DNA of 37,220 bases from Spirochaetia bacterium (GTDB lineage: Bacteria; Spirochaetota; Spirochaetia; PWKH01), in assembly GCA_007116075.1 (NCBI GenBank), contig SKJE01000071.1, positions 1-37,220 on the forward strand, read 5' to 3'. This document shows positions 3,425-35,498 of this stretch, one piece after another. The translations under genes were made by a program, and so were the position numbers. Position 1 is the first letter of the stretch. The number at the start of each line of letters is the position of its first letter. The notes under the pieces were generated by a model. That model was not told where the DNA came from, searched no databases, and was given only the letters and a program-made list of their open reading frames with translations.

Positions 3425-5041
3425 ATGTTTAAAGCACTCTTTGTAGATGACGAAATTATAGTACGGGAAGGGGTTGAGCGCCGGGTTGACTGGGAATCCC
3501 ACGGATTCCAGCTGATGGGTACTCTTGCCAATGGTTCACAGGTAGTCTCCTACCTCGAGAAGGACGATGACATCCAGCTGGTCTTCTCAGATATCTCCAT
3601 GCCGAATATGGACGGGCTGGAACTGGCAAAATATCTCCAGGAGCACCATCCGCATATCTATGTGCTGCTGCTTACCGGCTATGATGAGTTCGAGTACGCC
3701 CGGGAGGCGATCAAGTACCATGTGAAAGAACTGCTGCTCAAGCCTATCACTGCCCATGAGATGGGCAGGGTGCTTGACGGAGTGCACCAGGTCCTCGAGG
3801 GGGAGCAGTACCGCAAGCTGGAACAGGAGGAGCTCCAGCGGCTGGCTACTGAGAGTCGTCCGCTGCTGCGGGAGCGTTTCCTTAATTCCCTGGTCAAGGG
3901 GAACAGTTCTCCCGACCAGTTGTCACAGCAGCTGACTGTATACGACCTGCCCCGGATGAAGGGTCCCTGTATCTGCATTGTTCTGGATCCTTATCCGGAG
4001 GGTGACCAGGATGATCCCCAGCAATACTTTATGATATCCCTCCATGAGCTGTGCAGGAAGCATCTCCAGAAGCAGGATATCCTGTTCCAGGACAAGGATG
4101 ACCGACCGGTATACATACTCCAGCAGGAGAGCGCCCAGAGGCTGATCGACCGAAGCCGCCTGATCTGCAGCCAGATCAGGCAGCAGCTGAATCAGCATTA
4201 CCATGCATCGGTCTCCTTCGGTATAGGAAGGGTCTGCAGTGACTTCTCCGAAGTGCACCGCTCCTACCGGGATGCCCTTGCAGCCCTGAAGCACCAGTTC
4301 GTGCTGGGTAAAAACCGGATCATCTCCTATGATGATATATCCCATGACCAGAGCAGCCTCAAGGAGATTCGCAGGGATGTTGAAGAGGAACTGCTGGATT
4401 CCCTGAAGACTCAACCGGCTGATGCCAGCCAGCAGATTGTCAGTCGATTCTTCCAGGAAACCTTCTCCGAACATGTAAATCTCAGACAGGCCCAGCTACA
4501 GACTCACCTGCTCTTCGGGACGCTGCTAACCTTTGCGGAGGAAGCGGGGATAGATCCCTCCCGGGTGATTCCATCCTCCCAGGAGGGGTTGGTGGAAGTA
4601 TTCTCCCTGCGCAGCCGTGAGGAGGTCGAACAGTGGTTTTTTCAATGTATTGAGCAGATTCACCGGCAGGTTTCAACCAGCAGCTTGGATGTAACAGAGC
4701 AGAAAATTCGCCAGGCGGTAGCCTATATTGAGGAGCATTATTCCCTGCCTCAAGTGAATGTCCAGGATGTGTCCCGGGAGCTGCATATTTCACCAAGCCA
4801 TTTCAGTGCCCTGTTCAAACGTCATACCGGTAAGACCTTTGTGGAATACCTTACAGGTGTCCGGGTGCGTCAGGCCTCCATGCTGCTGAAGACTACCAAT
4901 CTCTGTGCCTATGAGGTTTCAGAAGCGGTGGGATACGAAGATTCCCACTATTTCTCTCAAGTTTTTAAGAAAGTGACCGGCATGACCATCAGGGAGTACC
5001 GATCGATGATTGGCTCATCCGAGGAAGGGGGCAAAGGGTGA
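3425..5041 (+). CDS. Response regulator, REC plus AraC-type DNA-binding domain (YesN type)
   Basis: A 538-aa two-component response regulator. The receiver domain is residues 1-120, with acidic pocket DDE at 8-10, phosphoacceptor D56 (FSDISMPNMDG) and conserved K106 (LLLKPI). A long middle region (about 120-420) is typical of YesN proteins. The C-terminal AraC/XylS HTH spans about 430-530 (LHISPSHFSALFKRHTG, then GYEDSHYFSQVFKKVTG). Its stop overlaps the GTG start of the histidine kinase by 4 nt, which pairs them firmly. By analogy with clostridial YesN partners it probably activates the downstream sugar ABC transporter genes; that is inferred from position only. Confidence 0.93.
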   Translation: MFKALFVDDEIIVREGVERRVDWESHGFQLMGTLANGSQVVSYLEKDDDIQLVFSDISMPNMDGLELAKYLQEHHPHIYVLLLTGYDEFEYAREAIKYHVKELLLKPITAHEMGRVLDGVHQVLEGEQYRKLEQEELQRLATESRPLLRERFLNSLVKGNSSPDQLSQQLTVYDLPRMKGPCICIVLDPYPEGDQDDPQQYFMISLHELCRKHLQKQDILFQDKDDRPVYILQQESAQRLIDRSRLICSQIRQQLNQHYHASVSFGIGRVCSDFSEVHRSYRDALAALKHQFVLGKNRIISYDDISHDQSSLKEIRRDVEEELLDSLKTQPADASQQIVSRFFQETFSEHVNLRQAQLQTHLLFGTLLTFAEEAGIDPSRVIPSSQEGLVEVFSLRSREEVEQWFFQCIEQIHRQVSTSSLDVTEQKIRQAVAYIEEHYSLPQVNVQDVSRELHISPSHFSALFKRHTGKTFVEYLTGVRVRQASMLLKTTNLCAYEVSEAVGYEDSHYFSQVFKKVTGMTIREYRSMIGSSEEGGKG

Positions 5042-6816
5042 TCCGCAGGTTTTTTTCCTTCTTCTCCACTCTGGAATCGCGCACATATTACATCTTTACG
5101 CTCCTCATTCTCATGACTATTCTCTCAACCCAGCTGATATCATATAACTACACCCAGCGCTCCCTCATTGATGTAACCAATACCCAGAAGGGATATACCA
5201 TGGAGCGCCTTGCCTACCAGATTGATACCTATATGACAACCATGGAGCAGATTGCCCATACGGTCATCGACTCCGATGAAATCCAGCAGTACTTTACCCG
5301 TTCCGGGCAGAACGACTCTGTCGATGGAGACGCGGTGTCCCAATACCTTGCCTCGTTCCTGCGTGCCCGGGAGGACATCACCACCATAGCATTGTTCGGG
5401 TTCGACGGAACGCGGATCACCAGTTCATCGGATCAGCAGGTCAGTCCCTTTTCCCATGTGGAACAGCAGCAGTGGTATCAGAATGCGGTGCATAACCCGG
5501 GCAGGACAATCATTTCCTCTGCCCATGTACAGAATCTTTTTTTCGGTATCTATCCCTGGGTGGTCTCCATGAGTATGACCTTCCATGACCAGATTACCGA
5601 CGAACCCCTTGGTGTACTTCTGGTTGACCTCAATTTTAACCGAATCAGGGAACTGAGCCAGCCGGTCATGCAGGATCCGCCGGAGTATATCTTCATCCTG
5701 GACAGCCATGGCGATTATGTATTTCATCCCCAGCAGCAGCTGGTCTACAGCGGAATCACCACCGAACCTACTGAATCGCTTATGGAGATGACCGACCGTT
5801 CCGATCCCCTGGAGGTCTCGGGTAAGAGCTATATCACCCGGCAGGCTCAGTCTGCGGACTGGAGGATTGTCTGTGTTACCGAGCTCTACGGGAGCATGGG
5901 CCAATGGCGCTATATCCAGGCAGCCTACGCAACCATTGGTCTGATAGCCTTCATTGTGGTGGGGCTGGTGGCAAACCTGCTTTCCCGCTCAATTACCCAT
6001 CCGATAAAGGAGCTCTGTGCGGTCATGAAATCTGTAGACCGGCACAATTTTAATATCACTGCAGAGATTGACTCCACTGTTGAGATCCAGCAGCTGGCCG
6101 ATGAATTCAATATCATGGTCAGGAAAATCCGGGGCCTGATTGACCAGATCCACCATGAGCAGGAACTGAAACGCAAGAGCGAACTGAAGGCGCTGCAGGC
6201 GCAGATCAACCCGCACTTTCTCTACAATACCCTGGATTCAATTATCTGGATGAGCGAAATGGATCGTAACCGGGAGGTGGTGCTCATGACCTCAGCATTG
6301 GCGCGGCTGTTCCGTATCAGCATCAGCAAGGGCCGGGAGATCATCACCGTCCGAGAAGAGCTGCTTCATGTGGAAAGCTACCTCACCATCCAGAAAATGC
6401 GCTACCGGGATCATTTCTCCTATTCCATTGAAGTTGACGAATCCCTCCATGCCTATCCCTGCCTTAAGATCATCCTCCAGCCCCTGGTGGAAAATGCTAT
6501 CTATCACGGATTAAAGACCGTTGAGTATAAGGGTTTGATCAAAATTTCAGGGTTCATCCAGGATGACCGGATAATCCTGCAGGTGATCGACAACGGTGTA
6601 GGCATGGACCCCCTGCTGCTGGAGCGATTGATTTCAGACAGTTCCGCCAGGAAACAGCTGCGTTCATCCTCAGGAGTCGGCCTGCATAATGTCCACGAGC
6701 GGCTTCGCCTCTACTTCGGTGAGCCCTACGGCCTTACCTGCAGCTGCACCCCTGGAGAACGTACGGTCATATCGGTGATCATGCCTGCTACACCTCCAAT
6801 GGAGGAGGACCTATGA
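5038..6816 (+). CDS. Sensor histidine kinase, YesM/LytS type
   Basis: A 592-aa membrane sensor kinase. TM1 is about residues 19-35, an extracytoplasmic Cache-like domain about 37-290, TM2 about 296-316, HAMP about 317-370, then a His_kinase domain (PF06580 type) with phosphoacceptor H393 in QAQINPHFLYNTLD. The HATPase has the N box LVENAIYHG and a G box near NGVGM. The start is GTG, overlapping the response regulator stop (ATGA-type junction). Its own stop overlaps the next gene by 4 nt, so kinase, regulator and the membrane-anchored binding proteins are translationally chained. It likely receives sugar occupancy signals from those proteins. Confidence 0.93.
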   Translation: MIRRFFSFFSTLESRTYYIFTLLILMTILSTQLISYNYTQRSLIDVTNTQKGYTMERLAYQIDTYMTTMEQIAHTVIDSDEIQQYFTRSGQNDSVDGDAVSQYLASFLRAREDITTIALFGFDGTRITSSSDQQVSPFSHVEQQQWYQNAVHNPGRTIISSAHVQNLFFGIYPWVVSMSMTFHDQITDEPLGVLLVDLNFNRIRELSQPVMQDPPEYIFILDSHGDYVFHPQQQLVYSGITTEPTESLMEMTDRSDPLEVSGKSYITRQAQSADWRIVCVTELYGSMGQWRYIQAAYATIGLIAFIVVGLVANLLSRSITHPIKELCAVMKSVDRHNFNITAEIDSTVEIQQLADEFNIMVRKIRGLIDQIHHEQELKRKSELKALQAQINPHFLYNTLDSIIWMSEMDRNREVVLMTSALARLFRISISKGREIITVREELLHVESYLTIQKMRYRDHFSYSIEVDESLHAYPCLKIILQPLVENAIYHGLKTVEYKGLIKISGFIQDDRIILQVIDNGVGMDPLLLERLISDSSARKQLRSSSGVGLHNVHERLRLYFGEPYGLTCSCTPGERTVISVIMPATPPMEEDL

Positions 6817-7811
6817 GACGGATGAACTGGCTGTATATCAGCGTCATTATTGCCGCGCTGCTCTATCTGCTGCTGCTCAACCTTGACACCAATGGAACCC
6901 CCGACCAGATGAGAAACCGCCATGCGGTGGTGATCCTCAAGGAACATGGGGAGCTCGCGGCTGATTTCTGGCGGGTAGTCCAGGAGGGCATGCAGGAAGC
7001 TGCCCGGGAGAGCGGCCTGCAGCTCAGCATCACCGGTCCTCCCAGGGAGCATATGGTGGATCTGCAGATTCGGCTGGTGCTTGAACAGATCCAGCTGGAG
7101 CCGGACATCATAATACTCGCTGCCACCGATTTTGACCGGCTCAGGGACCCTGTAGCTTGGGCTCATGCCCAAAACATACCGATAATTACCGTTGATTCCG
7201 CAGTGAATTCACGTATACCGGCATCCTTTGTGGCCACCGACAACGTTGAAGCGGGCATGAAGGCAGGGGAGCTGATGAAACAGCTGGTGCCGGAACAGGA
7301 TACCCCTTTGCTTATACTCAGCCAGAGCCGGGAGAGTTCCTCGGCCATCGAACGGGAAAAGGGAGTTCGCATGGCCCTCGAGCACTACACGTCACTGTCG
7401 GTTGCCTACGCAGACGGACAGTACCAGGCAGCCTTCGATCTTGCCACAGAAGCCCTTATCCGGGGGGAGATCAGGGCAATCATATCACTCAATGAAGTAA
7501 CTACCCTTGGAGCCGGAGATGCCCTGGCGCACCTGGGCATGGGAGAGACAATATCCATGGTTGGTTTCGACAACGCCCCAAGAGTACTTGCACACCTCCA
7601 GTCAGGCATCCTTGAGGGAACCGTAGTCCAGCGCCCCTTCACGATGGGTTACCAGGCGGTTAAGCTTGCTGAGGCGGTGCTCAGCGGCCAGGAAGTAGAC
7701 TCCTTTGTGAATACCGGATCAGTGGTGATCACCCGGGAGAATATGTTCGAACAGGAGTACCAGGAACTGCTCTTTCCATTCGATGCACCTTTGCAGGAGC
7801 TCTCACCATGA
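6813..7811 (+). CDS. Membrane-anchored periplasmic sugar-binding protein (XylFII-like receptor), copy 1
   Basis: A 332-aa protein of the type-1 periplasmic binding protein fold (Peripla_BP_4, RbsB/MglB class). One hydrophobic segment at residues 6-22 (LYISVIIAALLYLLLLN) lacks a clear cleavage site or lipobox Cys, so it is probably a permanent anchor. The binding fold follows (ITGPPREHMVDLQ, IILAATDFDRL, FVATDNVEAGMKAGELM, MVGFDN). It overlaps the kinase by 4 nt and its near-identical neighbour by 4 nt. A binding protein anchored in the membrane next to a kinase suggests a receptor role rather than delivery to the ABC permease, as for XylFII with LytS in clostridia. The sugar is not known. Confidence 0.85.
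   Translation: MRRMNWLYISVIIAALLYLLLLNLDTNGTPDQMRNRHAVVILKEHGELAADFWRVVQEGMQEAARESGLQLSITGPPREHMVDLQIRLVLEQIQLEPDIIILAATDFDRLRDPVAWAHAQNIPIITVDSAVNSRIPASFVATDNVEAGMKAGELMKQLVPEQDTPLLILSQSRESSSAIEREKGVRMALEHYTSLSVAYADGQYQAAFDLATEALIRGEIRAIISLNEVTTLGAGDALAHLGMGETISMVGFDNAPRVLAHLQSGILEGTVVQRPFTMGYQAVKLAEAVLSGQEVDSFVNTGSVVITRENMFEQEYQELLFPFDAPLQELSP
7728..7783 (+). repeat. Near-identical 3' segment of tandem paralogues, unit 1
   Basis: This 56-nt stretch near the 3' end of the first anchored binding protein matches 8732-8787 in the second at 52 of 56 positions by direct comparison. The rest of the genes are more diverged at the DNA level. It encodes the conserved ITRENMFE..YQELLFPF tail. Strong codon-level conservation here may mean gene conversion or constraint on this tail. 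Confidence 0.7.
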
Positions 7812-8806
7812 AACGAAGCAGCTGGTTTTTTATAAGCATCATCACCGCAGGCCTTCTATACATTCTGCTGCTGAATGTCGGACTCTACCGAAATCCGGAC
7901 CACCGCCAGGAACACCATGTCATGGTTGTCCTGAAGGCAACGGTACAACCTATGGATTTCTGGGATGTAGTAAAAACCGGTATGGAAGAGGCTGCCCGGG
8001 AGCATACCCTGCAGCTCTCATTCATTGGTCCGCCCCATGAGCAAATGGTTGACCTGCAGGTTGAACTCATGCTGGAGGGTATTGAACAAGAGCCGGATCT
8101 CATCATTCTTGCGGCAGGGGATGTGGATCTGCTCGTAGATCCCATTGCCCGAGCTCATGAGAAAGGCATAGCAGTGATCATTATCGACTCGGGAACAGCA
8201 TCCTCCCTTCCAATCAGTTTTGTTGCCACCGACAATATTGAGGCAGGTATCAGAGCAGGAACATATATGGGACAAGTACTGGAACAAAGGATTCCCGACC
8301 GGCCCGGCAGAATCATGATCATGAGCCACAGCAGAGGAATAACTACGGCCATTGAGCGTGAATCGGGGGTTCGCAGGGCACTTGAAAAGCATGAAATCAT
8401 CGGCACGTGGTACTGTGATATAGATCATCAAGTGGCCTATGATTTGACCCGGGAGGTGCTTTCCATGTATCACATTGACGGCATCATCGGCCTCAATGAG
8501 GTCTCAACCCTCGGAGTAGCCGATGCAGTGTCAGACCTTGGTCTGGGAGGGGTGATTCCTATCGTCGGCTTTGATCATGCGGCCCAGGAAATGGCCTATC
8601 TGGAATCTGGCGTACTGGAAGCTACAGTTGTGCAGCGCCCTTATAACATGGGCTATATTTCTGTTACTCAGGCAGCCCGGCATCTGCAGGGTAAACCGGT
8701 AAAACCGGTGGTTAACACCGGCTCTAAGCTCATCACCCGGGAGAATATGTTCGAACCGAAGTACCAGGAACTGCTCTTCCCCTTCGAAAAGCTGAACGGA
8801 TTATAG
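7808..8806 (+). CDS. Membrane-anchored periplasmic sugar-binding protein (XylFII-like receptor), copy 2
   Basis: A 332-aa tandem paralogue of the preceding gene, the same length and alignable end to end. It has an N-terminal anchor (FFISIITAGLLYILLLN) and matching motifs FIGPPHEQMVDLQ, LIILAAGDVD, FVATDNIEAGIRAGTYM and IVGFDHA, and ends with the same ENMFE..YQELLFPF tail. Several side-chain positions in the fold differ (for example DSGTASSLPIS versus DSAVNSRIPAS), so ligand preference may differ. It overlaps copy 1 by 4 nt. The two may act as a homo- or heteromeric receptor for the kinase. It is followed by a 120-nt gap before the transporter genes. Confidence 0.85.
   Translation: MKRSSWFFISIITAGLLYILLLNVGLYRNPDHRQEHHVMVVLKATVQPMDFWDVVKTGMEEAAREHTLQLSFIGPPHEQMVDLQVELMLEGIEQEPDLIILAAGDVDLLVDPIARAHEKGIAVIIIDSGTASSLPISFVATDNIEAGIRAGTYMGQVLEQRIPDRPGRIMIMSHSRGITTAIERESGVRRALEKHEIIGTWYCDIDHQVAYDLTREVLSMYHIDGIIGLNEVSTLGVADAVSDLGLGGVIPIVGFDHAAQEMAYLESGVLEATVVQRPYNMGYISVTQAARHLQGKPVKPVVNTGSKLITRENMFEPKYQELLFPFEKLNGL
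8732..8787 (+). repeat. Near-identical 3' segment of tandem paralogues, unit 2
   Basis: This is the second copy of the 56-nt segment described at 7728-7783, with 52 of 56 positions identical. It lies at the 3' end of the second anchored sugar-binding protein. Confidence 0.7.
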
Positions 8807-8926
8807 ATATCCTTCTACACATCATAGTTTATTCACACTTCATAAGATTTTTCTCCATGTATTTCTTTCACATCCGACCTCATACTATTGATGTGTGAAA
8901 ACCGAAACAATCAAAGAGGACCGAGA

Positions 8927-10462
8927 ATGGCACAAAAAGAAATCCTGTCCATGAAGAACATTCAAAAAAGCTTTTCCGGTGTCCATGCCCTCAAGGGGGT
9001 ACATTTTGATCTTCTCCAAGGTGAAATCCATGCATTGGTCGGCGAGAACGGTGCAGGTAAATCTACCCTGATGAATGTACTCACCGGAATTCACCCGAAA
9101 GATTCCGGTGAGATCTACTACTACGACCGCCTGCTGAATCCCAGGGGCCCGAAACATGCCATGGAACTCGGTATCGGTATTATCCATCAGGAACTGAATA
9201 TGATGGACCACCTCACGGTGGCTCAGAATATCTTTATCGGCCGGGAATTTACCAAGCAGAAGGGACTCTTCCTTGATGAGAAGACTTTATACCGGGAAAC
9301 CGAAACACTGTTTAAGCGACTGAATGTAAATATCGATCCCACCGAAACTCTGGGTAAACTGACCATTGGGAAACAGCAGATGGTTGAAATCGCCCGGGCT
9401 GTATCCCACGATCTCCGTATACTCATACTTGATGAGCCCACCGCAGCACTCTCAAATCAGGAGATCAATGACCTGTTCAATATCATGAGGGACCTCGCTT
9501 CGAAGGGAGTGGCAATGATCCATATCTCCCATCGCCTTGAGGAAATCGCCCAGATCACAGACCGGGTGACCGTGCTCAGGGACGGAGCCAACGCCGGCTC
9601 ACGAGTGACCAAGGAAGTAGACCGGCAGGAAATCATCAACATGATGGTGGGCCGGGTTATTTACGAACAGCCGAAGCAGGAGAGTACCGTAAAGAAGAAT
9701 GCCCCGGTGGTACTTAAAGTGACAAACCTCAATGCGGGCAAGATGGTGCAGAATGTCTCCTTCGACTTAAAGCAGGGAGAGATTCTTGGATTTGCCGGCC
9801 TCATAGGAGCCGGTCGAACAGAGACTGCCCGGGCAATATTCGGAGCGGACAAGGTGCTCAGCGGATCCATCCAGATTAAGGGACGGCCGGTACTGATCAA
9901 AACCCCTGAGGACGCGGTGAATCACGGACTGGGCTACCTCTCGGAGGACCGAAAGCGTTACGGGCTCGCTATCAGAATGTCCGTGGCGGACAACATGATT
10001 CTGGCAACCATGGAACAGTTTCAGAAAAGACTGCTTATCAATGCAAAGAAGGTTCAGCAGGAAGCTGATGCGTATATCCAAAAGCTGAGCATCAAGACTC
10101 CTTCAATTAACCAGTTAGTGAGGAATCTCTCCGGAGGAAACCAGCAGAAGGTGGTTATCGCAAAATGGCTGATTAAGAACTGCGATATCCTGATCTTTGA
10201 TGAGCCGACCCGGGGAATTGATGTGGGTGCCAAAAGTGAAATCTATACGCTGATGAATGAGCTTGCCGACCAGGGCAAGTCAATCATCATGATCTCCTCC
10301 GAACTTCCGGAGATCCTGCGTATGAGCGACCGGATTATTGTCATGTGCGAAGGGAGAATTACCGGAGAACTGGACATTAAGGGAGCCACCCAGGAAGAAA
10401 TTATCAAATATGCAACTATGAGAAAAACAGGAGCGCAGGCATATGCAGACAGTGCAGAATGA
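8927..10462 (+). CDS. mglA: Sugar ABC transporter, double ATPase subunit (MglA/RbsA family)
   Basis: A 511-aa ATPase with two nucleotide-binding domains that powers import through the adjacent permease. NBD1 has Walker A GENGAGKST, the atypical signature LTIGKQQMVEIARA common in this family, and Walker B ILILDEPTAAL. NBD2 has the usual degenerate P-loop (GAGRTETARAIFG), signature NLSGGNQQKVVIAKWL and Walker B ILIFDEPTRGID. The ORF track begins at a TTG at 8888, but ATG 8927 is preferred: AGAGGA lies 6 nt upstream and MAQKEILSMKNIQKSF is the normal family start. It overlaps the permease gene by 20 nt. The gene symbol follows family resemblance; the sugar is unproven (galactose, ribose and xylose systems look alike). 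Confidence 0.9.
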   Translation: MAQKEILSMKNIQKSFSGVHALKGVHFDLLQGEIHALVGENGAGKSTLMNVLTGIHPKDSGEIYYYDRLLNPRGPKHAMELGIGIIHQELNMMDHLTVAQNIFIGREFTKQKGLFLDEKTLYRETETLFKRLNVNIDPTETLGKLTIGKQQMVEIARAVSHDLRILILDEPTAALSNQEINDLFNIMRDLASKGVAMIHISHRLEEIAQITDRVTVLRDGANAGSRVTKEVDRQEIINMMVGRVIYEQPKQESTVKKNAPVVLKVTNLNAGKMVQNVSFDLKQGEILGFAGLIGAGRTETARAIFGADKVLSGSIQIKGRPVLIKTPEDAVNHGLGYLSEDRKRYGLAIRMSVADNMILATMEQFQKRLLINAKKVQQEADAYIQKLSIKTPSINQLVRNLSGGNQQKVVIAKWLIKNCDILIFDEPTRGIDVGAKSEIYTLMNELADQGKSIIMISSELPEILRMSDRIIVMCEGRITGELDIKGATQEEIIKYATMRKTGAQAYADSAE

Positions 10463-11720
10463 TACCAGTCTCAAGACACAGAAGATAACTCTCAATCTCC
10501 AGAAATTGATGGCTCCGGCCGCCCTGGTGATTATCTACATCTTTTTTGGGTTGTTCGGGAGAAACTTCTTTTCCTACTCAACATTCATCAATATCGTGGA
10601 TTCCGCCTACTACATTGGGTTTGCAGCTATCGGGGTTACCTTCGTGATTATTACTGGTGGAATCGACCTTTCTGTTGGAACGGTCATGATGTGCGCCGCA
10701 GTTATCGGGGGAACCGCATACAGAACCTGGGGATGGCCCATGTGGATATCCCTGGTGCTCATTCTGGTTGTCGGTGTCATCTTTGGTATTTTTAACGGCA
10801 TCATGGTCTCCCGGCTGAAATTGCCGCCCTTTATAGCCACCCTCGGAACAATGATGATATCCATGGGAATCGGCTCAATCGTATCGAATGTGCGAAGTGC
10901 GGCCTTCCCGCCGAGAACTGCCCCTGACGGCTGGTTCAAGAATATCTTCAAGTACATCACAGAGAACCATTTTTCCATTCCTACAGGGCTAATTGTCTTG
11001 CTCGGTGTAACCGTCATCGCCCATATTATCCTGACAAGGACAAAGATGGGCCGCTACATCTTTGCCATCGGCAGCAATAAAGAAGCCGCCCGTCTGTCCG
11101 GGGTGAATATCCAGAAATGGGAGATGATGGCCTATGTGGTTGCCGGAACAACTGCAGGTATCGGAGGTATCTCCTTTGCAGCGGTTTATACCACCATCAT
11201 GCCGGCCCAGGGCCAAGGCTTTGAGCTTTTCGCCATTGCCGGTGCTGTTATCGGTGGAACCTCCCTGGCCGGCGGAGTCGGCTCAGTATTCGGCACCCTC
11301 ATTGGTGTGTTTATTATGGCCGTCCTCCGTTCAGGACTGCCCTCTATGGATCTGCAGGCCCACTATCAGACCTTCTTTACGGGTGTTGTGGTCATCGGTG
11401 CGGTGCTGCTGGATATGTACCGGAATAAGAAGGCTACCGAAGTGAAGCTGATAACCCCTGCGGATCTGTACAAACAGACAATGACCAAGAAAATCTCCGA
11501 GCTGAAACTTGAACAGCGCCAGGCTCAAAAAGCCGGCGATACCGCCAGGGCAAACACACTCTCCGCGCAGCTCAAGGATCTGCAGAGGGAGATGAAGAAG
11601 ACCTTTACGGACATGAAAGCGAAGGAAAAGAGAGAGCTTGAACGGACCCATGCTGAAGAGCGTGCAGCTGAAAAAGAATTCCAGGAGATGCTCAAAAAAG
11701 AGAGCAGCTCCTTGAAGTAA
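10443..11720 (+). CDS. mglC: Sugar ABC transporter permease (MglC/RbsC family) with C-terminal coiled-coil extension
   Basis: A 425-aa inner-membrane permease (BPD_transp_2 family). Residues about 15-345 hold the usual set of membrane helices and family motifs (GGIDLSVGTVMM, LPPFIATLGTMM, IGSNKEAARLSGVNI, GAVIGGTSLAGGVGSVFGTLIG). Typical family members end near residue 330. Here about 75 further residues follow, very rich in K, E, Q, R and A with heptad-like spacing (for example LSAQLKDLQREMKKTF), predicted by eye to form a cytoplasmic coiled coil. AGGAG lies 9 nt before the ATG, inside the ATPase gene. The extension shares the gene's reading frame without a frameshift, so it is a genuine fusion or lineage-specific tail. 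Confidence 0.9.
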   Translation: MQTVQNDTSLKTQKITLNLQKLMAPAALVIIYIFFGLFGRNFFSYSTFINIVDSAYYIGFAAIGVTFVIITGGIDLSVGTVMMCAAVIGGTAYRTWGWPMWISLVLILVVGVIFGIFNGIMVSRLKLPPFIATLGTMMISMGIGSIVSNVRSAAFPPRTAPDGWFKNIFKYITENHFSIPTGLIVLLGVTVIAHIILTRTKMGRYIFAIGSNKEAARLSGVNIQKWEMMAYVVAGTTAGIGGISFAAVYTTIMPAQGQGFELFAIAGAVIGGTSLAGGVGSVFGTLIGVFIMAVLRSGLPSMDLQAHYQTFFTGVVVIGAVLLDMYRNKKATEVKLITPADLYKQTMTKKISELKLEQRQAQKAGDTARANTLSAQLKDLQREMKKTFTDMKAKEKRELERTHAEERAAEKEFQEMLKKESSSLK

Positions 11721-11760: not shown

Positions 11761-12858
11761 ATGAAGACTAATCGAATTTTTATCGTACTGCTGAGCCTGG
11801 TACTGCTTGCGGCATTTGTAATGCCTATAGCAGCCCAGGGACGTGGTGAGGCTAAACCGTATATCGCGGTGGTATCAAAGGGAGAACAGCATGACTTCTG
11901 GCAGACTGTAAAGCTTGGAGCTGAAGCAGCAGCTGAGGAGTACGGTGTGGACATTACCTTTGAGGGACCTCCCTCAGAGAGCGATGTACAGATTCAGGTT
12001 GAAATGTTCAACAGCGCTCTTGCAAAGAATCCCGTAGCAATTGCCCTGGCAGCACTGAATACTGAGTCTGTCATTGACCAGCTTTCTGAAGCGCAGCGGC
12101 GCGGAATCCCTGTAGTCGGATTTGACTCAGGTGTACCTGAAGCTCCCGAAGGATCTATTGTTGCCAATGCTTCCACCAACAACTATGCTGCCGCCGGTAT
12201 GGCCGCAGAGAAGATGTTTGATGAACTGAAGGACAAGATCGATGCAGCAACCTCATCAAATCCTGTGAAGATTGTAGTGATGAACCAGGACGCTTCCGGT
12301 GAATCCCTGCTGAGCCGCGGTCGCGGATTCCGGGACAGAATCGTTGAACTGGTAGCTGAAGAAACAAGACATTCACGGAATAATATCCGCGTCATGGGCA
12401 ACCCTGCATACATTGCCAGTGATTCACCAACCGGTGGAAATGTAGTGTTTATCGAGATGGTAGTACCCGCCTCTGCAGCAGAGCAGGATACCACTGCAGC
12501 AGCACAGAACGTACTCAACAAGGTTCGGGAAGACAATATCCTGGGACTGTTCCTCTCTAATGAAGCAACTGTAAAGGGTATTCTCGCTGCAACCAACGAC
12601 GGAACCACCCTCGGATCAACCTACCAGGACCTCGAAGTGGTCGGGTTTGATGCCGGTCTTGCACAGAAGAACGCTGTCCGCGCAGGCTACTTCCTCGGAT
12701 CAATTACCCAGGATCCCTTTATGATCGGTTTCCGGGCTGTTGAGCTTTCGTCAAAGGCATATCGGGGCGAGCCGGTTGCTGATATTGACACAGGCGCCAA
12801 ATTCTATGACTCTTCCAACATGGATGAAGCTGACATTGCACGCCTATTGTATGATTGA
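11761..12858 (+). CDS. mglB: Periplasmic sugar-binding protein of the ABC importer (MglB/RbsB-like)
   Basis: A 365-aa secreted solute-binding protein. The signal peptide covers about residues 1-24 (IVLLSLVLLAAFVMPIAAQ), with a signal peptidase I type AxA-like site and no lipobox Cys, so it should be soluble in the periplasm. The mature part has the Peripla_BP_4 fold (VVSKGEQHDFWQTVKLG, TFEGPPSESDVQIQVEMF, VVGFDSGVP, VVGFDAGLAQKN). It is related to the two anchored proteins upstream but longer and cleavable. A very strong AGGAGGT site (11750-11756) sits 4-5 nt before the ATG, consistent with the high expression usual for binding proteins. A strong terminator follows 23 nt after the stop. Confidence 0.9.
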   Translation: MKTNRIFIVLLSLVLLAAFVMPIAAQGRGEAKPYIAVVSKGEQHDFWQTVKLGAEAAAEEYGVDITFEGPPSESDVQIQVEMFNSALAKNPVAIALAALNTESVIDQLSEAQRRGIPVVGFDSGVPEAPEGSIVANASTNNYAAAGMAAEKMFDELKDKIDAATSSNPVKIVVMNQDASGESLLSRGRGFRDRIVELVAEETRHSRNNIRVMGNPAYIASDSPTGGNVVFIEMVVPASAAEQDTTAAAQNVLNKVREDNILGLFLSNEATVKGILAATNDGTTLGSTYQDLEVVGFDAGLAQKNAVRAGYFLGSITQDPFMIGFRAVELSSKAYRGEPVADIDTGAKFYDSSNMDEADIARLLYD

Positions 12859-17780: not shown

Positions 17781-17866
17781 GGTTGACTCCTTATCAGTGT
17801 TGATCCATCCTAACAAGTGAGGGCATCGAGGGCAAGTAAGAAAACGCCCCAAAGGAGCGCTTTTTG

Positions 17867-17875
17867 TGGTACAGT
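17867..17875 (+). promoter_or_regulatory. Extended -10 element of the hybrid kinase gene
   Basis: TGGTACAGT is an extended -10 (TGn plus TACAGT). The start is expected near 17882, about 25 nt before the preferred GTG. The same TGGTAYA form occurs before other genes in the window. A second -10-like TATACT lies at 17878-17883. Confidence 0.4.
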
Positions 17876-17906
17876 ATCATATACTAACGTGCAACGGAAA
17901 TGTACC

Positions 17907-20312
17907 GTGAAACAGATGATCATCAGTATGATGACACTTTTCTTACTCACCTCAGTCATCCTCGCCGGCACGCCCATTCGAGCCGGCGGGGATGATGCGT
18001 ATCCGCCCTTTGAGTTCATCAATGATGAGGGATTACCCGACGGTTTCACTGTAGATATCGTCCGCGCTGTGGGCGAAGCCATGAGCCTTGACATCGAAAT
18101 CACCCTTGGACGATGGAGTGACGTACGAAGACAGCTGGAGGATGGAGAGATTGACCTAATCACCGGTATGCTCAGGACCACTGAACGGGAAAAGCTCTAT
18201 GATTTCTCCATTCCCTATATCGCCATGAGCTATGCACTGTTTGTCCCGGAGCATACGCTGCTGCATGATCCCGAAGAATTGATACATTCCAGGCTGATTG
18301 TCCAGCAAGGTGATGCCGCCCACGAATTCGCCCTGAAGCATAACATAGCCAGAGAGCTCGTCCTGGCAGACAGCTACCCGGAAGCCCTGAGGATGCTGGT
18401 TGAAGGTGTTGGAGAAGGAATCATCATGCCCCGCATCCAGGGGATGCTGCTGGTTAGGGATCTGGACGGCCTCGATATCAAGCCCGTTGGTGACAGTCTT
18501 TTTCAGAAAAACTATGGTCTGGCGGTTAGTAAAGGAAATTCCGACCTGCTCTATCTATTGAATGAGGGACTGAGCATCATCAAGGGAGAGGGCATCTTCG
18601 ACGAAATCTATCTCAAATGGTTCGATCTCTCTCCCAATCAGGGTGTCACCTTTCAGGACATAGCAACCCATATGCTCTGGGTGGCAGTTCCCCTGGGTAT
18701 CATCATCCTGCTTATACTGCTCTGGTCCTGGTCTCTTCGCCGACAGATACAGTACAAGTCCATTGATCTTGAAAGAGAACTCACAGAACGTGCCACGGCC
18801 CAGCGGGAGCTCGATACCAGCAGGGAGACACTCAATACTGTGGTCAGCCTCATCCCCCACTTGATCTTTCTGGCAGATCGGTCAAGGCGGCTGCTTCTGG
18901 TAAACAAAGCGCTATGCGAAACTGCAGGAAGGACCTTGGAAACACCGCCGAAGCATGTCAGGGAGCTGAATATCAAACCTGAAGAACTGATGGTGCTTAC
19001 TGATACTGCCCGGGAGGTGTTCACCACCGGTGAGCGGAGAGAAATATCCCGTCACCAGTTCACCGACTTTACCGGAGTGAAACGTTGGATGCATACCTAT
19101 ATGCTGCCCTTTACCAATACATCCAATGGAGAGACCAACCTTCTGGGTATATCTATGGATATAACGAAACTGCTGGACCTAGAGGAACAGCTGATGCAGT
19201 CCAGAAAGCTTGAAGCTGTGGGACAGCTGGCCGGAGGCATTGCCCACGATTTCAACAACCAGCTCACCGGGGTACTGGGGTTTGCTGAGCTGCTTCATGC
19301 TGAACTGCATGAACCACAGCATCAGGAATATGCCCGCTATATCCTTGAAGCTGCCGGAAACGCAGCGGAGCTTACGAAGAAACTGCTCTCCTTTGCCCGC
19401 AGGGGCCATTACCGTGCACAATATATCTCCCTTCACGACATAGTGAGGCAGGTGACTTCTATTATGAGTCACACCATTGACAAGCGGATCACCATCAAGG
19501 TACATCTCCATGCGCAGTCAGATATTCTCTTTGCAGATCCCACCCATGTGCAGAACATGCTGCTGAACATCGTCATAAATGCCCGGGATGCCATGCCGTC
19601 AGGAGGTGATCTGACGCTTTCATCCTGGAATGAAGATATCCCTATCCAGGATGATGAGGATCTTGCAGGGCCGGTTATCATGCTTGAAATCAGCGATACC
19701 GGCATCGGCATGTCAGAATCGGTGCAGAAACGGATCTTTGAGCCCTTCTACACGACTAAACAGCAGGGTAAGGGAACAGGAATGGGACTGGCCTCGGTGT
19801 ATGGATCAATTCAGCAGCTGGGAGGTGTTATCACTGTAGCAAGCACTCCTGGTCAGGGCAGTACCTTTCTTCTCAAGCTTCCCCTGGCCAGCGACCCTCA
19901 GCTGCTGGAAGAAATTGCTCCCCATGAGCACAGTGCTGCACCGTTTAAAAAACGTATGATCCTGGTCATAGACGACGAACAGGTATTCCAGCAGGCCCTG
20001 ATGGCAATGCTGACTGCTATGGGATGCAGGGTAGTTGGTCTGCTGGATCCCCTGGAGGGTATCAGGTACTACCGTGAGCATCAAGAAGAAATCGATGTGG
20101 TAATCCTTGATATGCTCATGCCGGTACTTAATGGTCAGGAGACTTTTCACGAACTGAAGCGAATTAATCCTGATATCAAGGTCGTTATTGCCTCGGGATA
20201 TTCCCCAGATGATTCCATTGAGCGGATGTACAGCCATGGAGTTTCCGGTTTTATCCTGAAGCCCTTCCAGCGGGATGAATTGATCCGGCTGCTCGAGGAA
20301 GTTCTGCCGTGA
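17907..20312 (+). CDS. Hybrid sensor histidine kinase with solute-binding sensor, PAS, HATPase and REC domains
   Basis: About 801 aa from GTG 17907. Domains in order: export signal or anchor (1-24), SBP_bac_3 amino-acid-binding-like domain (about 28-245, DAYPPFEF and GFTVDIVRAVGEAMSLDI), TM helix (about 255-274), PAS (about 300-430), HisKA with H447 (GGIAHDFNNQLTGVLG), HATPase (DTGIGMSE, KGTGMGLASV) and a C-terminal receiver with D735 (VVILDMLMPVLNGQE) and LKPF. It should bind a small polar ligand outside the cell and phosphorylate itself. The ORF track start at 17817 is too early: it would include a hairpin-like segment and the promoter, and hide the signal peptide. GTG 17907 gives VKQMIISMMTLFLL; ATG 17916 is the alternative. 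The next gene overlaps by 4 nt. Confidence 0.88.
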   Translation: MKQMIISMMTLFLLTSVILAGTPIRAGGDDAYPPFEFINDEGLPDGFTVDIVRAVGEAMSLDIEITLGRWSDVRRQLEDGEIDLITGMLRTTEREKLYDFSIPYIAMSYALFVPEHTLLHDPEELIHSRLIVQQGDAAHEFALKHNIARELVLADSYPEALRMLVEGVGEGIIMPRIQGMLLVRDLDGLDIKPVGDSLFQKNYGLAVSKGNSDLLYLLNEGLSIIKGEGIFDEIYLKWFDLSPNQGVTFQDIATHMLWVAVPLGIIILLILLWSWSLRRQIQYKSIDLERELTERATAQRELDTSRETLNTVVSLIPHLIFLADRSRRLLLVNKALCETAGRTLETPPKHVRELNIKPEELMVLTDTAREVFTTGERREISRHQFTDFTGVKRWMHTYMLPFTNTSNGETNLLGISMDITKLLDLEEQLMQSRKLEAVGQLAGGIAHDFNNQLTGVLGFAELLHAELHEPQHQEYARYILEAAGNAAELTKKLLSFARRGHYRAQYISLHDIVRQVTSIMSHTIDKRITIKVHLHAQSDILFADPTHVQNMLLNIVINARDAMPSGGDLTLSSWNEDIPIQDDEDLAGPVIMLEISDTGIGMSESVQKRIFEPFYTTKQQGKGTGMGLASVYGSIQQLGGVITVASTPGQGSTFLLKLPLASDPQLLEEIAPHEHSAAPFKKRMILVIDDEQVFQQALMAMLTAMGCRVVGLLDPLEGIRYYREHQEEIDVVILDMLMPVLNGQETFHELKRINPDIKVVIASGYSPDDSIERMYSHGVSGFILKPFQRDELIRLLEEVLP

Positions 20313-26312: not shown

Positions 26313-27638
26313 ATGGCATTTTCTGATTATCTGCATGAACAGCACATTCTGTTTTTCCAGGACGTATCAAAGAACGAGGCAATTCACCAGCTTGCCCAGA
26401 CGGTCAGTGAGCGGGTCCCGAATAGTGATACGGATACCATAATAAAGGCTGTTTGGGACCGTGAATCCCAGCTTTCCACCCGGATAGCTCCAGGGATAGC
26501 CATTCCCCACGCCACCTTTCCCCATCTCAACACTACCTACATATCAGTCGGGGTCAGTCATAAGGGAATCCTTTACGATGCAAAGGAGGACGGGATAGTT
26601 CACCTGATCATTATGCTTGTGGGAGATGAGGCGAACCACCTCAAGGCACTCAGTGAAATGGCTATCCGGCTCCAGATTCCCGGCATCTATGAGCGAATCA
26701 TTGAATCAGAAAGCTCCCGTGAAATCTACAGCCTGCTTACCAGTCCCTCCCCTGACCTCCTAACCTCAATGGAATCGATTCATACCTCCCGCAAGATCTG
26801 CCGCCAGGCGGTGGAGCTTGCCCGGTCTCTCGAAGCTACCACAGTCATCATCCATGGGAATGACACTCTCATTTCCGGTGTGCGCTGCAGCCACCAGGAT
26901 ATCAGAATGCTCTATGTCGCTTCTGACACAAATGAACCCGTAGAAGAGAGCGTCAAGAATCCGAAGGAAAATACCCAGGTTATCACCATGCCCTTCAGGG
27001 GACTGAACCGCTCAAGCCAGGTGGAGATAAGTCTGCTTCTTGCCCTGTCAAAGGGGCTGCTTAAGCGTGAAGAGCGGGTGGTGAGCGTATTCGGACTCAA
27101 CTCACTGAAACGCCTTGACACTATCGTGTATACAGATGTACAGAGGGAGTTCAAGCGTTTTTTCTCCACCTCCATCGATAATGCGTCCAATGACATCCAG
27201 CAGCAGGTGTTCATTCGGGTGATGCAGCTTGCCTCCGAGATTGCCCATGAGGGACGGGAGGGAAAAGCGGTGGGAACCCTGTTTGTGATCGGGGAATACG
27301 AAGAAGTATCCCAACACTGCCAGCAGATGATTGCAAATCCCTTCAAGGGCTACGAAGATCATGAACGTAATATTCTTGACCCAGGGCTCTCTGAGACTAT
27401 CAAGGAGTTTGCCCAGATAGATGGTGCGATTATCATAAAGGGAAACGGGGTCATCGCCTCGGCAGGCACCTATCTTCGGGTTAAGCATCCGATTAAAAAT
27501 TTTCCCTCAGGACTTGGAGCCCGCCATGCAGCTGCTGCAGGTATAACCGCAGCAACCGAAGCGGTGGCTATTGCGATATCTGAATCAACCCGGAAACTGA
27601 GTCTCTTCAGTTCCGGGGAACGTATCATGGAAGTCTAG
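26313..27638 (+). CDS. PTS EIIA (type 2) fused to a DacZ-like diadenylate cyclase
   Basis: A 441-aa fusion. Residues 1-150 form a fructose/nitrogen-type PTS EIIA domain with phosphoacceptor H66 in GIAIPHA and LIIMLVGDEANHLKALSEMA. Residues about 155-290 (ICRQAVELARSLEATTVIIHG, FSTS) resemble the N-terminal alpha/beta domain of archaeal-type DacZ. Residues about 295-430 are a DAC (DisA_N) domain: IAHEGREGKAVGTLFVIGE, the DGA motif at 370-372, and GLGARHAAAAGITAATEAVAIAISES with R404-H405. The second motif is RHAAA rather than the RHR of DisA/CdaA, as in the DacZ group. Expected activity is synthesis of c-di-AMP from two ATP, possibly controlled by phosphorylation of the EIIA domain. No transmembrane segment is present. 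The nucleotidase gene follows after 18 nt. Confidence 0.85.
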   Translation: MAFSDYLHEQHILFFQDVSKNEAIHQLAQTVSERVPNSDTDTIIKAVWDRESQLSTRIAPGIAIPHATFPHLNTTYISVGVSHKGILYDAKEDGIVHLIIMLVGDEANHLKALSEMAIRLQIPGIYERIIESESSREIYSLLTSPSPDLLTSMESIHTSRKICRQAVELARSLEATTVIIHGNDTLISGVRCSHQDIRMLYVASDTNEPVEESVKNPKENTQVITMPFRGLNRSSQVEISLLLALSKGLLKREERVVSVFGLNSLKRLDTIVYTDVQREFKRFFSTSIDNASNDIQQQVFIRVMQLASEIAHEGREGKAVGTLFVIGEYEEVSQHCQQMIANPFKGYEDHERNILDPGLSETIKEFAQIDGAIIIKGNGVIASAGTYLRVKHPIKNFPSGLGARHAAAAGITAATEAVAIAISESTRKLSLFSSGERIMEV

Positions 27639-33095: not shown

Positions 33096-35498
33096 CTAGC
33101 TGGTAACATCAGTATGTTGAAGCAGCACCGGCGAGGTATAGATTTTCCCGTTTACCTCAATCTGGTATTCCTGTTCCTCCATCCGGGTGATCGATATGTC
33201 GTACCAGCGGTCTCTGAACAACCGTCGAACCCGGGCAGAAGAGAGCCATGAGGGAAGTGCCGGATCGATAAGAAGCCCGTCGAATTCGGGCCGGATACCG
33301 AGCATATAGTGATGGGATACCAGCACATTCCATGAGGCGGTACCGGTCAGCCAGGAGTTTTTCGCCTCGCCGAATCGGGGTGCATCGGGTCCTGCAATCA
33401 TCTGGGAGTATACATAGGGCTCTGCCCGATGTATCTCGCTGATGGATTCACGGTAGGCGGGATTGATCAGCCGGTAGTAGGCATAGGCCTGGTCGGGATC
33501 TCCCTGGAGAATCTCTGCGATCATCACCCAGGGATTATTGTGGCAGAATATTCCTGCATTCTCCTTATATCCCGGTGGATATGAGGAGATTTCTCCGTAC
33601 TCCCGCCTGTAGCTGGTGAACGCCGGGGTATTGAGCTGGATGCCATGGTCACTGACCAGCAGCTGTTTCACCGCATCCAGGGCCCTCCTGGGATACCCCT
33701 CCTCCTCACCGATTCGAGCCATGGAACAGAACCCCTGGGGTTCAATAAAGATTTTTCCTTCTGAGTCTTCACTCGTACCAACAGGATTCATGTGGTCATC
33801 ATAGGCTCTCAGATACCATGAGCCATCCCATCCGTGGTCGATCACAGCTTTTTCGGTCAACTCAAGTTCCCGTTCAATACGAGCAGATTCCTCCAATCTT
33901 CCAGTTCTTCGACACAGCTCCGCCCAGTCCGGGGCAATGAAGGCAAAGATTCCTGCGATCAGGACACTTTCGGCCCGGTTTCCTCCCCGATTCTCACAGG
34001 TCTGGAATGACTCATCCGGATCATCGGAATACGCATTGAGGTTGAGACAGTCATTCCAGTCAGCTCGTCCAATAAGCGGCAGTCCATGGACTCCCTTGCT
34101 GCTGCTATAGTGCTCAAGCACGGCATGAAGATGATCCCAGAACTGCACAGGGGTATCCGGTTCATCAGCGAAGGTCACCGGTTCATCAAGGATAGTCCAG
34201 TCACCGGTCTCCTTGATATATGAAACCGCTGCATAGACCAGCCAGAGAGGATCATCATTGAATCCGGTACCGACATCTCCGTTACCTCTTTTGGTCATGG
34301 GCTGGTACTGATGGTATGCGCTTCCGTCGGTAAACTGAATTGAAGCAACGTCCAAAATACGCTGACGGCATTCGTCGGGTAGAAGGTGCATCACCCCAAG
34401 CATATCCTGGTTGGTATCCCTGAAACCTATCCCCCGTCCGATACCCGATTCATAGTAGGAGGCACTTCTGGACAGATAAAAGTTCTGGACGCACTGATAC
34501 TGATTCCATGTTGATGCCATACGGTCAAACGGGTCTTCACCTGTTTCTGCCTGAAATCGGCTGAGCAGCCGGTCCCAGTGGATACTCAAGTCTTCAAAAG
34601 CGCGGTCGACCTCTGACGGATTGCTGAAGCGATCCAGAACTCGCCGGGCATCTGAGGTCTCCGGTATTCCCGGGGAAGCCCATTTATTTTTATCCCGTTG
34701 ACTTTGGTAGCCGAGCATAAAGACAATCCGTCTGGATTCACCCGGTTCCAGGTGCAGACTGACCCGAAACGCCCCGATGGGGAACCACCCGCTCACTATG
34801 CTGTTCTCCGAACCGCCGCTGCGTGGTACCGCCGGGTCCCGATAGTCTCCGTCCGGGCCGAGGAATACTTCCCGATCGGTATCAAATCCGGAGGGGTCAC
34901 AGTTGACTCCGTACCAGCTGTAATGGTCTCTCCGTTCCCGGTACTCCGTGGTATGGCAGATCATGCTCGGTTCAAGATGCACCTCCCCAATATTGAGGTT
35001 TCTCTGGAAATTGGTCATATCATCAAGGGCATTGTAGTTACTAAACTCAACGCAGCTGTAGAATTCCATATCCCGTACGCTTTCGCTGACATTTTCCACA
35101 AGCACATCCTGGAGTTCAACCTGCTCGTCCCGGGGTATGCACCAGCGCAGACGAACCCTGATACCGTTGCGGGAAGAGGTAATCTCTGTAGTTCCCATTC
35201 CATGGCGGCAGGTAAAATCATCGAGGGTATATTTCATCGGTTTGTACAGTGGACTCCAGAGATCGCCTGCCTCATTAATATAGACATTCCTAGCACCCAC
35301 ATCCCGGGGTACCTGATGATACCGATACCGGGTCAGCCTGCGCAGCCGTGCATCCTGGTAGAACGTGTACCCGCCGCCCGTGTGGGAGATCAGGGAGAAA
35401 AGAGTACCGTTACCCAGGTAGTTAATCCAGGGACGTGGTGTATTGGGGGTTGTAATGACATATTCCCGTCGTTTGTCGTCAAAGTGTCCGTACTGCAT
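33096..35498 (-). CDS. GH94-family disaccharide phosphorylase (cellobiose/chitobiose phosphorylase-like)
   Basis: An 800-aa cytoplasmic phosphorylase that would cleave a beta-linked disaccharide with phosphate to give a sugar 1-phosphate and a free sugar. The start MQYGHFDDKRREYVITTPNTPRPWINYLG and GGYTFYQDARLRRLTRYRYH are diagnostic of GH94. The catalytic region GRADWNDCLNLN has its DWND at about residues 480-483, and KENAGIFCHNNPWVM lies downstream. The length matches cellobiose and N,N'-diacetylchitobiose phosphorylases (about 800 aa); the choice between them, or laminaribiose, is open. No signal peptide is present. AAGGAG lies 9 nt before the ATG. The gene is 25 nt downstream of the GH2-like gene, so they form an operon, probably under the ROK regulator. 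Confidence 0.92.
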   Translation of the reverse strand: MQYGHFDDKRREYVITTPNTPRPWINYLGNGTLFSLISHTGGGYTFYQDARLRRLTRYRYHQVPRDVGARNVYINEAGDLWSPLYKPMKYTLDDFTCRHGMGTTEITSSRNGIRVRLRWCIPRDEQVELQDVLVENVSESVRDMEFYSCVEFSNYNALDDMTNFQRNLNIGEVHLEPSMICHTTEYRERRDHYSWYGVNCDPSGFDTDREVFLGPDGDYRDPAVPRSGGSENSIVSGWFPIGAFRVSLHLEPGESRRIVFMLGYQSQRDKNKWASPGIPETSDARRVLDRFSNPSEVDRAFEDLSIHWDRLLSRFQAETGEDPFDRMASTWNQYQCVQNFYLSRSASYYESGIGRGIGFRDTNQDMLGVMHLLPDECRQRILDVASIQFTDGSAYHQYQPMTKRGNGDVGTGFNDDPLWLVYAAVSYIKETGDWTILDEPVTFADEPDTPVQFWDHLHAVLEHYSSSKGVHGLPLIGRADWNDCLNLNAYSDDPDESFQTCENRGGNRAESVLIAGIFAFIAPDWAELCRRTGRLEESARIERELELTEKAVIDHGWDGSWYLRAYDDHMNPVGTSEDSEGKIFIEPQGFCSMARIGEEEGYPRRALDAVKQLLVSDHGIQLNTPAFTSYRREYGEISSYPPGYKENAGIFCHNNPWVMIAEILQGDPDQAYAYYRLINPAYRESISEIHRAEPYVYSQMIAGPDAPRFGEAKNSWLTGTASWNVLVSHHYMLGIRPEFDGLLIDPALPSWLSSARVRRLFRDRWYDISITRMEEQEYQIEVNGKIYTSPVLLQHTDVTS

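Follow-up and report, generated by a model that had tools for sequence, protein, structure and literature searches.

Among the closest described counterparts of the locus analysed here is the XylFII-LytS-YesN system of Clostridium beijerinckii, which combines a Peripla_BP_4 receptor, a LytS/YesM kinase and a YesN regulator by a CUT2 importer that has its own sugar-binding protein (SBP); the receptor gene lies upstream of the kinase. A sensory role also belongs to GanP (6gq0) and AraP (6sw4) of Geobacillus stearothermophilus, which are of the same protein family. In another setting, LuxP binds AI-2, and LuxQ is a hybrid kinase with a receiver domain. That an SBP can act on a dCache receptor, or on a kinase such as LuxQ, has precedents (PMC6321045). 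Finally, in CuaDSR of Ruminiclostridium cellulolyticum one SBP is reserved for sensing and another serves uptake, and the sensing SBP works with a two-component pair (PMC10384115).

The window, by which is meant the whole stretch of 37,220 nucleotides of Spirochaetia DNA that was analysed, carries a locus to be set beside these systems (Table 1). It is probably a three-component sugar sensor that controls the adjacent CUT2 importer, derived from a one-receptor ancestor by a duplication within the genus, and with L-fucose, or another substrate of L-fucose isomerase (FucI), as its likely ligand. In a literature search, which covered mostly papers available without subscription, neither a YesM/YesN three-component system for L-fucose nor a kinase with tandem receptors came to light.

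Table 1. Sensor genes, putative operator and importer genes (positions in the window)
Feature	Positions	Strand	Basis and remarks
YesN-type response regulator, 538 aa	3425..5041	+	ORF; Pfam Response_reg, GGDEF_2 and HTH_18 (AraC HTH)
YesM-type sensor kinase, 592 aa, GTG start	5038..6816	+	TM, dCache_1 (residues 54-278), HAMP, His_kinase, HATPase_c
SBP1, RbsB-like receptor anchored in the membrane; the fast-evolving copy, with Ala as the M49 equivalent	6813..7811	+	Pfam Peripla_BP_4, 1.6e-43
SBP2, membrane-anchored RbsB-like receptor, with the ancestral pocket	7808..8806	+	Pfam Peripla_BP_4, 1.1e-49
Putative YesN operator TTTTCTCCATGTATTT	8849..8864	+	Diverged counterpart of CCGtAAaATtcTCgATTTCGcGAT in relatives; presumed function
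CUT2 sugar importer ATPase (RbsA/MglA type)	8927..10462	+	ABC_tran; likely start ATG 8927, frame open from TTG 8888
CUT2 importer permease	10443..11720	+	BPD_transp_2
SBP3, transport SBP, secreted (signal peptide)	11761..12858	+	Peripla_BP_4

Layout of the locus and comparison with described systems

As a preliminary description of this DNA had recognized, YesN, YesM and two tandem SBPs are chained by a 4-nt overlap at each junction, and all four ORFs are intact. By Pfam, the His_kinase domain (PF06580) of YesM and the AraC-type regulator YesN make up a two-component pair. The operon had been placed directly upstream of the importer; it does lie upstream, but a gap of 120 nt (8807-8926), with an apparent importer promoter inside it, separates the two. 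Pairwise alignment of SBP1 with SBP2 gives 52% identity over 328 aa, and SBP3 is 25-27% identical to each of them. An assembly repeat was considered as the source of the tandem and was ruled out, since the identity is only 52%; the tandem is neither an assembly artefact nor a product of chance.

Both receptors have a hydrophobic N-terminal helix, and a motif check for an AxA-type site or a lipobox found none in either protein. In the AlphaFold model of SBP1 (pLDDT 93), a continuous helix at residues 2-28 is followed by the globular SBP fold. These results fit the earlier view that both receptors keep an uncleaved N-terminal helix, unlike the secreted SBP3 at 11761. Across loci, a cleavage-like motif occurs in 31 of 38 SBP3s versus 19 of 60 receptors, as counted by the strict AxA pattern, a crude test for signal peptides that this share of the receptors also matches. 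In the tree, the receptors and the transport SBPs form separate clades (support 100/100); in the alignment, 34 receptor-specific positions separate receptors from SBP3s, and the receptor clade has its own C-terminal signature, YQELLFPF. Clades and synteny together show that the receptor SBP is a dedicated one, apart from that of the importer, as in an SBP-dependent three-component sensor. Of what had been proposed, the analysis supports the three-component sensor, the anchored receptors distinct from the secreted importer SBP, the CUT2 linkage, and two receptors for one kinase.

The ectodomain of the kinase belongs to the dCache type (dCache_1, E 6e-18 in Pfam). When the AlphaFold model of YesM residues 18-372 (pLDDT 86) is compared by Foldseek, the matches are dCache domains; among the 50 matches listed many are liganded chemoreceptors, and LuxQ was not found among them. 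The nearest solved kinase domain is that of 6swj, a "Histidine kinase" entry, in a match limited to the catalytic region.

How close, then, is the locus to XylFII-LytS-YesN, with which its layout had been equated? The families of the receptor, kinase and regulator and the neighboring CUT2 importer with its own SBP are alike, and an anchored, uncleaved receptor is found here as well, judged on the side of SBP1 and SBP2 alone. However, the window kinase has a dCache ectodomain in place of the four-helix bundle of LytS (PMC9769921), the receptors follow the kinase (YesN-YesM-SBP-SBP), and there are two of them. Moreover, a closer XylFII-like locus is present in the same genome on contig C45 (L009:6171-12439), where the receptor precedes the kinase: the order is SBP-LytS-YesN, then a lipoprotein SBP, a XylF-like SBP, and a CUT2 ATPase and permease. 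Among solved structures, the anchored SBP of that locus matches GanP and XylFII best, while the window receptors are nearer to 3brs, 4rxt and GanP than to XylFII (for SBP2, 1.3e-50 with 3brs versus 3.5e-18 with XylFII). The dCache kinase, the different gene order and the nearer locus on C45 therefore place the window outside the XylFII-LytS-YesN family, and the equation does not hold: the locus would work like a XylFII-type three-component sensor while falling outside that group. The lipoprotein SBP on C45, which matches D-xylose-binding proteins, lies next to YesN and could be a second receptor there.

GanP and AraP are among the closest solved relatives, and they are 24% and 21% identical to SBP1, respectively. 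The likeness to CuaDSR lies in a dedicated sensing SBP apart from the uptake SBP; the differences are that CuaD is a cellobiose lipoprotein, that the CuaS ectodomain has no predicted domain, and that there is a single receptor (PMC10384115). With LuxPQ and the dCache chemoreceptors the locus would share the action of an SBP on an extracytoplasmic kinase or dCache domain (PMC6321045). Unlike LuxPQ, it has a YesM-family kinase without a receiver domain (by Pfam), an AraC-type regulator and an anchored receptor.

Distribution and history of the duplicated receptor

Homologues of both the kinase and the receptor are spread across the class. In the 60 loci fetched, the block of YesN, YesM and anchored SBP is strongly conserved (about 60 spirochaete loci), and genes for a CUT2 ATPase, a permease and SBP3 usually come after it. 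Scanning named genomes gave 80 loci with the same block, overlapping with the 60 fetched ones, in Spirochaetaceae, Treponema, Paenibacillus, Cohnella, Petroclostridium and Clostridia MAGs. In most of these loci the importer and SBP3 lie alongside and the receptor gene starts near the kinase stop, frequently with a 4-nt overlap.

Two receptors in tandem after the kinase are another matter: among the loci compared, they occur only in the window and in L106 (genome G051). Both same-genus genomes, G001 and G002, have a single receptor between kinase and importer. A comparison of gene order in related spirochaetes, which had been suggested as a check, thus bears out the block and not the double receptor. 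One receptor is the rule, also within the genus, and therefore the duplication is a derived, lineage-specific state of a one-receptor system. In the same-genus locus of G002 (L070:6202-8984), the kinase gene is interrupted by an in-frame TAG and the receptor match by a TAA, either by sequencing error or by decay.

When did the duplication occur? SBP1 and SBP2 share a clade with the two receptors from the same genus (99/99), and within it the tree joins SBP1 to those two (98/85). A topology with SBP1 and SBP2 as sister copies is not rejected in an AU test (p 0.36), and set against the grouping in the tree this means that the event can be dated only to within the genus. The branch of SBP1 is long, 0.77 compared with 0.34 for SBP2 and 0.25-0.27 for the same-genus receptors, and SBP1 is off consensus at 12 of 76 near-invariant columns, SBP2 at 5. 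Its pN of 0.32 versus a pS of 0.72-0.77 denotes purifying selection; SBP1 evolves 2-3 times faster while still being constrained.

The pair in L106 (7513-9534), 50% identical, follows a dCache YesM kinase and has no CUT2 importer directly downstream. Its two receptors are each other's nearest relatives (100/97), so tandem receptors arose at least twice. Collectively, the window holds a member of a real and conserved class of sugar sensors with a lineage-specific receptor duplication.

Ligand pocket and candidate operator

To map the pocket, RbsB contact positions (14 in all) were transferred by remote alignment. K43, F51, W52, D127, S128, T141, R184, N230, F255, D256 and Q276 are near-invariant in the receptors and largely common to the SBP3s. 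The position of RbsB N13 differs: it is Met in 50 of 59 receptors, His in all 35 aligned transport SBPs, and Ala in SBP1. In all, SBP1 and SBP2 are identical at 12 of the 14 mapped positions versus 170 of 328 overall; the second difference, at the RbsB F164 position, falls in a poorly aligned stretch. SBP2 and the same-genus single receptor are alike at 14 of 14. SBP1 has further changes at receptor-specific positions 174, 180, 261, 266 and 280, including H174Q, T180S and N280T. The divergence around the pocket that had been claimed for the two receptors thus amounts to one first-shell change, Met to Ala, along with some receptor-specific substitutions, and does not extend to the pocket as a whole, which is the conserved part. 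SBP2 has kept the ancestral pocket, and SBP1 has one altered mapped first-shell position.

Another point concerns the control of the importer. In most relatives, an element with the consensus CCGtAAaATtcTCgATTTCGcGAT (~22 bits) stands between the receptor gene and the ATPase gene, and a -10-like GGGTGATAAT often comes after it. Of the 34 training loci, 31 have the element ahead of the importer at 11 bits or more. Outside the training set it precedes the importer again in L076, L081, L087 and L110, even though in two of these ~2.6 kb separates the receptor gene from the importer. This conserved element is a candidate YesN operator. In the window, the class operator model gives no match at the equivalent place, and its best scores, 11-12 bits elsewhere, look like chance. 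The variant TTTTCTCCATGTATTT, read by eye as the genus-level version and below the class-model threshold, is followed by a -10-like CATACTATT at 8881-8889. Its one exact occurrence in this genome is that at 8849-8864, with none upstream of FucI; the sequence scans covered the fetched stretches of genomes.

Likely sugar and the role of two receptors

Which sugar is sensed? FucI is encoded in the fetched flank of 11 of the 60 loci, in several families, and also near the receptor in Paenibacillus abyssi, Clostridia MAG and Treponema loci; its identity was confirmed by Pfam or NCBIfam at L083, L198 and L127. With phylogeny ignored, FucI is found in 57 of 65 receptor genomes versus 80 of 282 others (Fisher p 6e-19), and it lies within ~12 kb at ~13 loci, counted by eye, versus a roughly estimated ~0.5 expected. 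This context has no pointer to xylose genes. That FucI is close to the receptor across many families, Firmicutes included, makes L-fucose or a similar sugar the likely ligand, with L-fucose as the best guess and D-arabinose as the main alternative. That the sugar is an aldose other than L-fucose, such as D-arabinose or D-allose, is a real possibility that falls somewhat short of probable. Enzymes of the FucI family can act on D-arabinose too, SBP1, SBP2 and SBP3 all fit the D-allose SBP best among NCBIfam models (far under its cut-off), and in the genus of the window FucI is not adjacent to the receptor locus, being on contig C156 in this genome. However, the L-fuconolactonase-like and rhamnulokinase-like genes found beside some loci, where an aldo/keto reductase gene also occurs, favor a 6-deoxy sugar.

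In the proposed mechanism, the anchored RbsB-like receptors would bind the sugar outside the inner membrane and act on the dCache ectodomain of YesM; YesM would phosphorylate YesN, which would in turn activate the importer promoter at 8807-8926. After the duplication, SBP2 would have retained the ancestral pocket, and SBP1 would be the constrained, accelerated copy. We infer the receptor-kinase contact, the ligand, the operator function and the role of SBP1; comparative support is good for the mechanism, the ligand and the operator. One fact counts against a receptor-mediated mechanism: dCache domains often bind ligands directly, commonly small molecules. Could SBP1 and SBP2 then be tethered transport SBPs for the importer, with the kinase relying for sensing on a pocket in its own dCache domain? 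They are of the same superfamily as SBP3, with a largely similar pocket, but the importer has its own secreted SBP3 in most loci, the receptors are the separate clade with the signature described above, and in Treponema loci L175, L179 and L195 the receptor stays by the kinase gene with no CUT2 gene in the fetched flank; such a role is improbable.

What does SBP1 contribute? It may bind a different sugar from SBP2, or form a heteromeric receptor with it, so that one kinase integrates both. Two constrained receptors on one apparent transcript speak for this, as do the Ala of SBP1 at a position that is mostly Met in receptors and His in transport SBPs, its additional receptor-specific changes, and the independent L106 pair, which differs at the same position (Phe versus Ile). 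Yet the mapped pockets are nearly identical, on a map that is itself a remote alignment, one receptor suffices in same-genus relatives, and the kinase is single copy; this division of labor is conceivable, though on the unlikely side. A more specific form, in which SBP2 would read the ancestral sugar (probably L-fucose) and SBP1 a second sugar or serve as a modulating partner, a two-input design that would have arisen independently at least twice, is more doubtful. Rather unlikely, too, is that SBP1 has no role of its own and is redundant or in decay: its long branch and its departures from near-invariant columns would suit decay, but the ORF is intact with 4-nt overlaps on both sides, selection is purifying, the predicted fold is good, and every invariant pocket residue is kept.

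The preferred reading, a one-receptor sensor with a duplicated receptor, would describe a form of SBP-dependent sugar sensing that uses a dCache kinase and is widespread among spirochaetes and Firmicutes, with a likely sugar and a candidate operator. The duplicated receptor tied to one kinase offers a natural experiment in receptor divergence.

Other genes in the window deserve mention. At 17817-20312 there is a hybrid histidine kinase carrying its own SBP_bac_3 domain, which overlaps an N-formylglutamate amidohydrolase gene at 20309, and at 33096-35498 a phosphorylase of the GH94 family. A PTS EIIA_2 domain is fused to a DAC (diadenylate cyclase) domain at 26313-27638, a fusion that might couple c-di-AMP to the state of the PTS.
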